Positions 1 through 36,102 of a stretch of 64,000 bases of DNA are shown piece by piece. The position numbers were made by a program, and so were the translations under genes. This DNA comes from Loxodes magnus (Eukaryota > Ciliophora > Karyorelictea > Loxodida > Loxodidae): contig CAMPDV010001569.1 of assembly GCA_946699065.1 (NCBI GenBank), forward strand, positions 36,114-100,113, in the 5' to 3' direction. Under the pieces are notes generated by a model, which was not told the origin of the DNA, did no database searches, and saw nothing but the letters and a program-made list of their open reading frames with translations. Every line of letters begins with the position of its first letter. The first letter of the stretch is position 1.

Positions 1-3000
1 GGAAGTGGAGATAAGACGGTGAGACTATGGGACGTCAAGACAGGTACCTGTAAGACCATGAGTGGTCACACAGATTGAGTATATGCTGTGGCTATATCCA
101 GTGATTCAGAGTTCATCGTATCGGGAAGTGGAGATAAGACGGTGAGACTATGGGACGTCAAGACAGGTACCTGTAAGACCATGAGTGGTCACACTAGTTA
201 TTTATTATCTGTGGCTATATCCAGTGATTCAGAGTTCATCGTATCGGGAAGTGGAGATAAGACGGTGAGACTATGGGACGTCAAGACAGGTACCTGTAAG
301 ACCATGAGTGGTCACACTAGTTATGTATTATCTGTGGCTATATCCAGTGATTCAGAGTTCATCGTATCGGGAAGTTATGATAATACGGTGAGACTATGGG
401 ACGTCAAGACAGGTACCTGTAAGACCATGAGTGGTCACACTAGTTATGTATTATCTGTGGCTATATCCAGTGATTCAGAGTTCATCGTATCGGGAAGTGG
501 AGATTAGACGGTGAGACTATGGGACGTCAAGACAGGTACCTGTAAGACCATGAGTGGTCACACATATTAGGTATGTGCTGTGGCTATATCCAGTGATTCA
601 GAGTTCATCGTATCGGGAAGTGCAGATAATACGGTGAGACTATGGGACGTCAAGACAGGTACCTGTAAGACCATGAGTGGTCACACTAGTCATGTATGAT
701 CTGTGGCTATATCCAGTGATTCAGAGTTCATCGTATCGGGAAGTCATGATAAGACGGTGAGACTATGGGACGTCAAGACAGGTACCTGTAAGACCATGAG
801 TGGTCACACAGATTGAGTATATGCTGTGGCTATATCCAGTGATTCAGAGTTCATCGTATCGGGAAGTAGAGATAAGACGGTGAGACTATGGGACGTCAAG
901 ACAGGTACCTGTAAGACCATGAGTGGTCACACAGATTGAGTATATGCTGTGGCTATATCCAGTGATTCAGAGTTCATCGTATCGGGAAGTGGAGATAAGA
1001 CGGTGAGACTATGGGACGTCAAGACAGGTACCTGTAAGACCATGAGTGGTCACACTAGTTATGTATGATCTGTGGCTATATCCAGTGATTCAGAGTTCAT
1101 CGTATCGGGAAGTGCAGATAAGACGGTGAGACTATGGGACGTCAAGACAGGTACCTGTAAGACCATGAGTGGTCACACTAGTTATGTATATGCTGTGGCT
1201 ATATCCAGTGATTCAGAGTTCATCGTATCGGAAAGCGTAGATTATACGGTGAGACTATGGGACGTCAAGACAGGTACCTGTAAGACCATGAGTGGTCACA
1301 CAGATTGAGTATATGCTGTGGCTATATCCAGTGATTCAGAGTTCATCGTATCGGGAAGTGGAGATAAGACGGTGAGACTATGGGACGTCAAGACAGGTAC
1401 CTGTAAGACCATGAGTGGTCACACTAGTTATTTATTATCTGTGGCTATATCCAGTGATTCAGAGTTCATCGTATCGGGAAGTGGAGATAATACGGTGAGA
1501 CTATGGGACGTCAAGACAGGTACCTGTAAGACCATGAGTGGTCACACAGATTGAGTATATGCTGTGGCTATATCCAGTGATTCAGAGTTCATCGTATCGG
1601 GAAGTAGAGATAAGACGGTGAGACTATGGGACGTCAAGACAGGTACCTGTAAGACCATGAGTGGTCACACAGATTGAGTATATGCTGTGGCTATATCCAG
1701 TGATTCAGAGTTCATCGTATCGGGAAGTGGAGATAAGACGGTGAGACTATGGGAAGTCAAGACAGGTACCTGTAAGACCATGAGTGGTCACACAGATTGA
1801 GTATATGCTGTGGCTATATCCAGTGATTCAGAGTTCATCGTATCGGGAAGTCATGATAATACGGTGAGACTATGGGACGTCAAGACAGGTACCTGTAAGA
1901 CCATGAGTGGTCACACTAATTCTGTATATGCTGTGGCTATATCCAGTGATTCAGAGTTCATCGTATCGGAAAGCGTAGATTATACGGTGAGACTATGGGA
2001 CGTCAAGACAGGTACCTGTAAGACCATGAGTGGTCACACTAATTCTGTATATGCTGTGGCTATATCCAGTGATTCAGAGTTCATCGTATCGGAAAGCGTA
2101 GATTATACGGTGAGACTATGGGACGTCAAGACAGGTACCTGTAAGACCATGAGTGGTCACACTAATTCTGTATATGCTGTGGCTATATCCAGTGATTCAG
2201 AGTTCATCGTATCGGGAAGTCATGATAATACGGTGAGACTATGGAACGTCAAGACAGGTACCTGTAAGACCATGAGTGGTCACACTAATTCTGTATTATC
2301 TGTGGCTATATCCAGTGATTTAGAGTTCATCGTATCGGAAAGCGTAGATTTTACGGTGAGACTATGGGACGTCAAGACAGGTACCTGTAAGACCATGAGT
2401 GGTCATACAGATTGAGTATATGCTGTGGCTATATCCAGTGATTCAGAGTTCATCGTATCGGGAAGTCATGATAATACGGTGAGACTATGGGACGTCAAGA
2501 CAGGTACCTGTAAGACCATGAGTGGTCACACAGATTGAGTATATGCTGTGGCTATATCAAGTGATTCAGAGTTCATCGTATCGGGAAGTGTAGATTATAC
2601 GGTGAGACTATGGGACGTCAAGACAGGTACCTGTAAGACCATGAGTGGGCACACAGATTGAGTATATGCTGTGGCTATATCCAGTGATTCAGAGTTCATC
2701 GTATCGGGAAGTAGAGATAAGACGGTGAGACTATGGGACGTCAAGACAGGTACCTGTAAGACCATGAGTGGTCACACTAATTATGTATGATCTGTGGCTA
2801 TATCCAGTGATTCAGAGTTCATCGTATCGGGAAGTAGAGATAAGACGGTGAGACTATGGGACGTCAAGACAGGTACCTGTAAGACCATGAGTGGTCACAC
2901 TAGTTATGTATATGCTGTGGCTATATCCAGTGATTCAGAGTTCATCGTATCGGGAAGTCATGATAATACGGTGAGACTATGGGACGTCAAGACAGGTACC

Positions 3001-36000: not shown

Positions 36001-36102
36001 TCTGTGGCTATATCCAGTGATTTAGAGTTCATCGTATCGGAAAGCGTAGATTTTACGGTGAGACTATGGGACGTCAAGACAGGTACCTGTAAGACCATGA
36101 GT
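1..36102 (+). CDS. Giant WD40-repeat protein, partial, open only if TGA (and TAG) are sense
   Basis: Frame 1 runs from the first base to 36,102 with no indel: 12,034 codons, about 293 copies of a 41-residue WD40 repeat. Each copy has the family landmarks: GH (codons 22-23), the strand core [12 protein letters not shown] with its Asp at codon 35, the turn D at codon 4, and TVRLWD (codons 6-11). Seven repeats normally close one propeller, so this is about 42 propellers' worth, far beyond ordinary WD40 proteins. In-frame TGA recurs at codons 26 and 28, where Trp is typical of the family. TAG occurs at 505-507, 562-564, near 3,768 and 3,829, at 6,286-6,288, 6,349-6,351, 31,597-31,599 and near 35,352. 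With TGA = Trp alone, 6,352-31,596 is still open for 8,415 codons. I saw no in-frame TAA. No start, signal peptide, membrane segment or other domain is in view; the 5' end lies outside. The role is unknown; a repeat scaffold or recognition surface is inference. A non-coding WD40-derived satellite remains possible. Confidence 0.62.
88..615 (+). repeat. Block duplicate P, copy 1
   Basis: Four units with codon-3/5 cassettes G-K, G-K, Y-N and G-TAG, ending with the unusual TAT TAG GTA TGT at codons 25-28. The same series recurs 47 units (5,781 bp) downstream. The two in-frame TAG codons at 505-507 and 562-564 were copied with the block, so they were tolerated during amplification. Confidence 0.85.
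1810..2415 (+). other. Stop-free five-unit block (201 codons)
   Basis: Five units (H-N, ESVDY, ESVDY, H-N with Asn at codon 11, Leu36/ESVDF), the core of the longer stop-free segments. It ends at a GAT TGA cassette preceded by the synonymous CAT for His23. Confidence 0.75.
5041..6090 (+). repeat. Block duplicate Q, copy 1 (15-unit offset)
   Basis: The unit order from the ESVDF unit through H-N, V-Y with GGGCAC, R-K, R-K, V-Y, ESVDY, G-K and G-K matches 6,886-7,935 at an offset of 1,845 bp. Related shorter versions lie around 2,340-3,400 and 4,060-4,990. Confidence 0.75.
5869..6396 (+). repeat. Block duplicate P, copy 2
   Basis: Same unit series as 88-615, including both TAG codons (6,286-6,288 and 6,349-6,351). 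The copies part at the next unit, which has codon-3/5 residues A-N in copy 1 and R-K in copy 2. Confidence 0.85.
6886..7935 (+). repeat. Block duplicate Q, copy 2
   Basis: Matches 5,041-6,090 unit for unit. The copies diverge where copy 1 continues with SYVLSV and copy 2 with the GAT TGA cassette. Confidence 0.75.
9067..9672 (+). other. Stop-free five-unit block (201 codons)
   Basis: Same series as 1,810-2,415, but opening with G-N. It also ends with the CAT-for-CAC synonymous marker, so the two share a recent ancestor. Confidence 0.75.
9841..10824 (+). repeat. Eight-unit block duplicate R, copy 1
   Basis: Eight units matching 11,071-12,054 at an offset of exactly 10 units (1,230 bp). The one clear difference is at 10,453-10,458, where codon 1 reads TGA instead of GGA. 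This is the only TGA I saw outside codons 26 and 28 in the clean part of the array. Confidence 0.85.
11071..12054 (+). repeat. Eight-unit block duplicate R, copy 2
   Basis: Second copy of the eight-unit series, with GGA at codon 1 where copy 1 has TGA. The following unit differs (Y-N here, G-N in copy 1). Confidence 0.85.
12265..14970 (+). repeat. Higher-order repeat S, copy 1 (22 units)
   Basis: A 2,706-bp block starting with R-K/SYVYAV/H-N, then R-K/SYLLSV/A-N/SHV, H-K/SYVYAV/R-K, a G-K pair and the seven-repeat stop-free segment 13,741-14,592. The same order returns four more times downstream with period changes only in whole units. Confidence 0.88.
13741..14592 (+). other. Longest standard-stop-free segment (283 codons, seven repeats)
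   Basis: Seven consecutive units without TGA or TAG, enough for one full propeller. Order at codons 1-5: G-N, ESVDY, ESVDY, H-N with Asn at codon 11, ESVDF preceded by Leu at codon 36, ESVDY with TTA at codon 9, then A-K with Asn at codons 35 and 11. It is the expanded form of a block also seen at 1,810, 9,067 and 16,078. Confidence 0.8.
14971..17799 (+). repeat. Higher-order repeat S, copy 2 (23 units)
   Basis: Same block order, 2,829 bp. Relative to copy 1 it lacks three units after 15,453, so the G-K pair is at offset +738 instead of +1,107. It carries extra units later (16,693-17,421). All changes are multiples of 123 bp, as expected from unequal exchange. Confidence 0.85.
16078..16683 (+). 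other. Stop-free five-unit block (201 codons)
   Basis: Same series as 9,067-9,672 within higher-order repeat copy 2, ending with CAC at His23. Shorter relatives lie at 21,982-22,464, 25,180-25,662, 27,640-27,999, 30,100-30,459 and 35,635-36,102. Confidence 0.75.
17800..20505 (+). repeat. Higher-order repeat S, copy 3 (22 units)
   Basis: 2,706 bp, near-identical in order to copy 1, with landmark offsets +246, +492, +1,107 and +1,476. A few cassette swaps distinguish it: for example 18,907 begins G-N where copy 1 has G-K, and the preceding unit is ESVDY instead of G-K. Confidence 0.88.
19276..20127 (+). other. Second copy of the 283-codon stop-free segment
   Basis: Encodes the same residue series as 13,741-14,592, lying 5,535 bp (45 units) downstream, in higher-order repeat copy 3. 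Confidence 0.8.
20506..23580 (+). repeat. Higher-order repeat S, copy 4 (25 units)
   Basis: 3,075 bp with the same landmarks. The stop-free block at 21,982-22,464 has lost one ESVDY unit compared with 13,741 and 19,276, and extra H-N / V-Y units occur between 22,465 and 22,965. Confidence 0.85.
23581..24300 (+). repeat. Higher-order repeat S, copy 5 (truncated)
   Basis: The first six units of block S recur, then the order departs at the SYVLSV/V-Y unit near 24,300. This is the downstream limit of the 22-25-unit periodicity. Confidence 0.8.
26815..28480 (+). repeat. Block duplicate T, copy 1 (20-unit offset)
   Basis: Units from R-K/NYV-TGA through two V-Y/GGGCAC units, R-K/NSVYAV/V-Y, R-K, G-K with GAA at codon 11 (27,557 region), H-N, H-N with AAC, LEF/ESVDF, V-Y, G-N, V-Y and H-N match 29,275-30,940 at an offset of 2,460 bp. 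Confidence 0.85.
29275..30940 (+). repeat. Block duplicate T, copy 2
   Basis: Second copy of block T. It parts from copy 1 after the last H-N unit, where this copy has GGT CTC ACA (His to Leu at codon 23) and copy 1 has the AAT TAT GTA TGA cassette. The GGT CTC variant also marks 24,541, 26,140 and the 36,590 and 37,700 regions. Confidence 0.85.

Follow-up and report, generated by a model that had tools for sequence, protein, structure and literature searches.

A tandem array of WD40 units

The window analysed here, a 64-kb stretch of DNA with a GC content of 44%, is occupied from end to end by one tandem array of WD40 repeats, as delineated by tandem repeat finding (TRF). An earlier note on this DNA had recognized a WD40 array over positions 1-36102; the array itself was confirmed, but its extent was underestimated, as it fills the whole window. 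The repeat unit is 123 bp (41 codons) long: TRF counted 368.6 copies on the forward strand over 1-45314, in the frame of base 34, and 152.1 copies in inverted orientation over 45338-64000. Units were cut in a fixed 123-bp register from base 34, and those of the tail, beyond 36.1 kb, were judged by comparing the two arms of a palindrome described below. Partial units at both ends were left out of the counts, as were 7 of the 75 tail units, whose length departs from 123 bp in both arms. Our codon numbers equal those of the earlier note minus 11 (26 becomes 15, 28 becomes 17). Between 34 and 36072 on the forward strand the array is gapless, as the earlier note had stated for the 36-kb array: 293 successive units are all exactly 123 bp long, only 60 of them are distinct, and 188 carry a TGA at codon 15 or 17.

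Successive units were found to belong to the WD40 repeat profile. Pfam WD40 (PF00400) matched 7 stretches of a TGA-free frame of 283 residues (13741-14592, E 1.3e-65) and 27 stretches of the 1104 residues obtained from 6361-9672 when TGA is read as Trp. The best sequence match of this second translation (table 4) in the PDB was 2ymu_A (E 5.5e-126). Because the alignment runs over 566 residues with no gaps, the array has the same 41-residue unit as 2YMU of Nostoc punctiforme, a protein of 14 repeats. Closer relatives were not found: at the DNA level nothing matched in the collections searched (exact patterns in viral and genome contigs, megablast in E. coli genomes), protein patterns of the array had no match in viral contigs, and tblastn against plasmids and phages, like a protein scan of genome contigs, yielded distant WD40 genes only. 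The best sequence matches, including those from plasmids and genome contigs by tblastn, were highly repetitive prokaryotic WD40 proteins such as the NB-ARC or caspase WD40 proteins of cyanobacteria, with identities below 60% in all 330 plasmid records and of at most 46% in genome contigs.

The units are near-identical except at a few codons. Many alleles occur at codons 14, 15, 17, 33 and 35, with 4-7 alleles at each of codons 15, 17, 33 and 35. The last four have the spacing of codons 7, 9, 25 and 27 of the Podospora anserina het-E/het-R WD40 repeats, which the available part of PMC2873952 describes as being under positive selection and modelled at the binding face; the array thus shows the HET-E-type arrangement of variable codons, an equivalence based on spacing. 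Moreover, of the WD40 positions listed in the accessible portion of PMC12222747 (10, 11, 12, 14, 30, 32 and 39), positions 11, 12, 14, 30 and 32 fit array codons 14, 15, 17, 33 and 35 at a single offset. Judged by their placement in the unit, the variable codons closely match the pattern of fungal receptors, and they do so whether the array is translated or dead. The window contains no NACHT or HET domain, in contrast to HET-E and HET-R, and no tRNA. A linked cassette, GAA AGC GTA GAT TAT/TTT at codons 31-35, recurs in 46 of the 293 units (34-36072), pointing to the exchange of short blocks between units.

In-frame stop triplets and the palindrome

Over 1-36102 (12,034 codons), the array frame holds 189 TGA, 8 TAG and no TAA. 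Each of the five remaining frames holds 529 to 1041 stops, which bears out the view that a single frame is usable. The earlier note had also placed TGA nearly always at what are here codons 15 and 17, in constant contexts; indeed, codon 15 accounts for 165 of the 189 and codon 17 for 23, the last one being at codon 31. The codon 15 context was ACA GAT TGA GTA TAT GCT in 165/165 cases and TGA17 was directly followed by TCT in 23/23; in the terminal units, three TGA17 are followed by GCT. Examples on the forward strand are the TGA15 of the first full unit (76-78, GAT TGA GTA TAT GCT) and a TGA17 at 1066-1068 (AGT TAT GTA TGA TCT). The eight TAG lie at codon 15 (three), codon 35 (three), codon 26 (one) and codon 7 (one).

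When TGA is read as Trp (table 4), the longest open frame extends over 8412 codons with 139 TGA (6361-31599, forward strand) and ends at the codon 26 TAG at 31597. The TAG at codon 7 (35353-35355, forward strand), an AAG to TAG change, is likewise not opened by this reading; it is read in the opposite arm as well. The claim that reading TGA as Trp opens the frame therefore does not hold, since eight TAG remain in the 36 kb and 36 across the 45-kb array (361 readable units). If both TGA and TAG are sense, all 293 units are open, as there is no TAA.

In these 361 units, TGA15 occurs in 188 and TGA17 in 41, never together, and TGG is found at codon 15 or 17 in none. The 36 TAG fall at codon 35 (14), codon 15 (13), codon 40 (5), codon 26 (3) and codon 7 (1), and 125 units lack any stop triplet. 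The last 18 full units (43070-45280, forward strand) are rich in TAG: of the 17 that are readable, 10 carry TAG at codon 15, 11 at codon 35 and 5 at codon 40, and 11 carry TGA17. These end units combine TAG15, TAG35 or TAG40 with TGA17, and TAG40 takes away the tryptophan of the WD motif. TGA15 units pair with eight different allele pairs at codons 33 and 35, and TGA17 units with five, as sense alleles would. Because the units have been copied from each other, stop counts as such are no evidence on coding; for the same reason, the argument that random decay would have scattered stops over many codons cannot be retained. Moreover, the distinct stop alleles are spread over seven codons (7, 15, 17, 26, 31, 35 and 40).

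The end of the window is a palindrome. Its left arm (26626-45325, forward strand) and right arm (45327-64000, reverse strand), which carries the same units in mirror order, flank a centre of one base, 45326, and align over 18,734 columns with 11 substitutions and 116 gapped columns. Single-base length errors start abruptly at 36.1 kb (36073-64000); up to the mirror point they mostly affect short G or C runs, for example TGGGAC read as TGGAC. G or C was concerned in 48 of the 49 gapped columns beyond 36.1 kb, and the 67 gapped columns opposite 26.6-36.1 kb involve all four bases. The sequence from 36073 to 64000 looks like unpolished read sequence. A length of 123 bp was found in both arms for 36 of the 75 tail units and in at least one arm for 68. 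Among the remaining seven, six pairs have indel sites that differ between the arms; only the unit at 40370 shares a 1-bp deletion, in keeping with coincident read errors at that site (0.48 expected). The palindrome most likely reflects a single molecule whose two strands were both sequenced, each with its own errors, a fold-back artefact at the contig end; it may alternatively be a true inverted repeat. Long-read fold-back artefacts are described in the available part of PMC12870357. As the arms are probably a double reading of one molecule, the independent information is that of 1-45325. The opposite arm repeats the same triplet for 56 of the 57 TGA15/17 and for both TAG of 26.6-36.1 kb; provided that this arm is a second reading of the region, the TGA and TAG triplets are not polishing artefacts.

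Residues of related proteins at the stop columns

We compared the stop columns with a bacterial set of 112 WD40 motifs drawn from 17 of 17 loci, from which repeats that did not fit the motif pattern were dropped; of the 330 plasmid records that gave a match, 8 were retrieved. Trp is the commonest residue at both main TGA columns, column 15 (28/112) and column 17 (33/112). A tally with a less strict motif reproduced this ranking, with Trp in 26 and 24 of 94 motifs, in 7 of 19 motifs with Asp14 and in 14 of 47 with Ser18. Cys (1 and 4 of 112) and Gly (8 and 1 of 112) are rare at these columns, and TGA as Cys or as Gly is disfavoured there. The proposals that TGA sits at Trp-like WD40 positions, and that Gly fits the second of the two poorly, are thus both borne out.

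The Podospora repeats are consistent with this picture. In the available part of PMC2873952, Table 1 gives Trp at position 7 in 5 and at position 9 in 4 of 22 parental repeats, never at both; TGA15 and TGA17 likewise exclude each other in the array, TGA standing where Podospora has Trp. All together, the abundance of Trp at columns 15 and 17 and the spacing and exclusion seen in Podospora indicate that TGA very probably stands for Trp or descends from it.

The placement of TAG was compared with that of Gln, which bacterial motifs carry at columns 7, 26 and 35 in 17, 38 and 18 of 112 cases, with Lys in 22, 38 and 32; in relatives these three columns often hold Gln, Lys or Arg. For Gln, the observed set of columns ranked among the best 4 of 56 TAG-accessible column sets, which do not cover codon 2. 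Column 40 was Trp in 112/112 bacterial motifs, though the motif pattern did not demand Trp there.

Recoded or dead array

Either the organism reads TGA as Trp, and TAG probably as an amino acid, or the array is a dead gene copied many times. We favour the first, sense TGA (Trp) together with sense TAG, and rate its chance as even. The array is a hugely expanded series of WD40 repeats with high internal conservation, of the kind known from fungal NOD-like receptors (NLRs) and similar bacterial proteins, in which the framework is homogenized and a few codons spaced like the ligand-facing Podospora ones (15, 17, 33 and 35, and also 14) vary. In the favoured reading, the host would assign Trp to TGA and an amino acid, most likely Gln, to TAG, a combination with precedents in the codes known from karyorelict ciliates, from Condylostoma and from Amoebophrya sp. 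ex Karlodinium veneficum (Amoebophrya sp. Kv). The array would form one reading frame with no internal stops, and TGA and TAG would simply be allelic variants at hypervariable binding positions, spread among units by unequal exchange. TAA and TAG stand for Gln in Loxodes, Condylostoma and Amoebophrya sp. Kv, and a nuclear code of this type with TGA as Trp would open every unit, with TGA at Trp columns and TAG partly at Gln-tolerant ones. Codes in which both TGA and TAG are sense are reported, in the parts of the sources available, for Loxodes (PMC11441545) and for Amoebophrya sp. Kv (PMC12005148, PMC6394959); the first of these also gives 231-359 Mbp of tandem repeats for Loxodes magnus assemblies.

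Several observations weigh against this favoured reading. The composition is unlike that of the AT-rich genomes reported with such codes: the window has 44% GC and the array frame prefers AAG to AAA by 674:1, compared with a coding GC of 33.5% in Loxodes (PMC11441545, available part) and 65.2% AT in Amoebophrya sp. Kv (PMC12005148 and PMC6394959, likewise), where, moreover, TAA is the commonest in-frame stop (58%), as against none in the array. A permutation of TGA columns for Trp was weak: leaving out codon 40, 5 of 35 sets scored as well, and 26 of 56 did when this codon was included. The lone TGA31 stands for a loop Gly; counting it puts Ser and Gly ahead of Trp. Lys slightly outscores Gln over the TAG columns, and half of the TAG copies (18/36) are found at codons 15 and 40, which are not Gln-rich. 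TAG replaces the structural Trp of codon 40 in 5 of 361 units; this codon is TGG in 293/293 polished units, whereas codons 15 and 17 are never TGG. Finally, some 368 units are far above the 10-11 repeats of het-E/het-R (PMC2873952, available part).

The spectrum of mutations was examined outside the variable codons, where 30 distinct changes comprise 16 missense, 10 silent and 4 to a stop triplet, against neutral expectations of 73%, 23.5% and 3.4%. The silent excess (P 0.15) leaves the silent to missense ratio near neutral, with no clear purifying selection, which again speaks against a translated array. Stop triplets were not depleted (4/30, excess P 0.018), and the 45 kb contain 0 or 1 real indel; at most one indel among 31 changes has a P of 0.28 to 0.009 for an assumed neutral indel share of 8 to 20%. 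Stops tolerated where frameshifts are not would be the pattern of sense stop codons, with the reservation that the counts are low and that the test was picked post hoc.

The main rival is a dead array under the standard code, which we regard as quite possible, if somewhat doubtful. A WD40 receptor gene with high internal conservation would have lost its function, one or two units would have acquired TGA in place of TGG at codons 15 and 17 (or of TTA at codon 17), and satellite-like amplification would have raised these to hundreds of copies, so that the stop counts would reflect copying. The small number of distinct units, the near-neutral silent to missense ratio, the copy number itself, TAG at codon 40 and the TAG-rich terminal units all favour this account, as does the fact that four of the seven codons with stop alleles are not hypervariable ones. 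Furthermore, a single step separates TTA17 from TGA17, and TCT follows both in polished units. In fungi, which provide the best-described examples of such repeats, TGA is a stop codon. In the accessible portion of PMC12222747, a figure legend flags repeats that contain stop codons or frameshifts. However, a dead array should hardly have escaped indels over 45 kb or hold stop alleles at or above their neutral share, and the absence of TGG from codons 15 and 17 would require complete replacement of both cassettes; nor would it be expected that TGA columns, and some TAG columns, coincide with the Trp and Gln columns of relatives.

Two further explanations fare worse. If TGA meant Trp but TAG continued to terminate translation (NCBI table 4 type), long frames would be parted by TAG and the TAG-rich end would have decayed. 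The 8412-codon frame and the rarity of TAG in 1-36102 (8 in 12,034 codons) agree with this, yet eight TAG interrupt the frame within 36 kb and TAG becomes common at 43-45 kb, and three of its five columns are Gln-compatible; we consider it improbable. Since TAGs remain, Trp-coding TGA is insufficient in itself and requires that TAG be sense as well; otherwise the array is dead. Repeat-induced point mutation (RIP) in a fungus, which would have turned TGG into TGA or TAG, was rejected and is the least credible of the explanations weighed. Its indices (TpA/ApT 0.906, (CpA+TpG)/(ApC+GpT) 0.951) pass the usual thresholds, though they are dominated by one repeated unit. RIP prefers the CpA context, in which a change of TGG gives TAG, but TGA outnumbers TAG by 188:3 at codons 15 and 17; in addition, TGG is intact at codon 40 in all 293 units, and 17 of the 30 distinct changes outside the variable codons are G>T, C>A or A>T. 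RIP is named as a possible mutagen of such repeats in the available part of PMC2873952.

Going beyond sense TGA and TAG as such, a more specific and rather unlikely proposal is that of a eukaryote in which TGA (Trp) and TAG (probably Gln) are sense and a single frame of more than 12,000 codons would encode about 368 WD40 units, the reassigned codons being alleles of hypervariable recognition positions in a giant, still diversifying reservoir of recognition repeats. The literature searched contained no description of a receptor of this type under a TGA/TAG-sense code. Should TGA and TAG prove to be sense codons, the array would document with unusual directness the entry of reassigned codons into positions under diversifying selection, and would represent a non-standard code at moderate GC, in contrast to the AT-rich Loxodes and Amoebophrya sp. 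Kv. A dead array, on the other hand, would caution that recurrent stops at the same columns of a tandem array are no independent evidence for recoding.

As a minor observation, 12 of the 30 distinct changes outside the variable codons (1-45314) are G>T or C>A, a bias reminiscent of oxidative damage.

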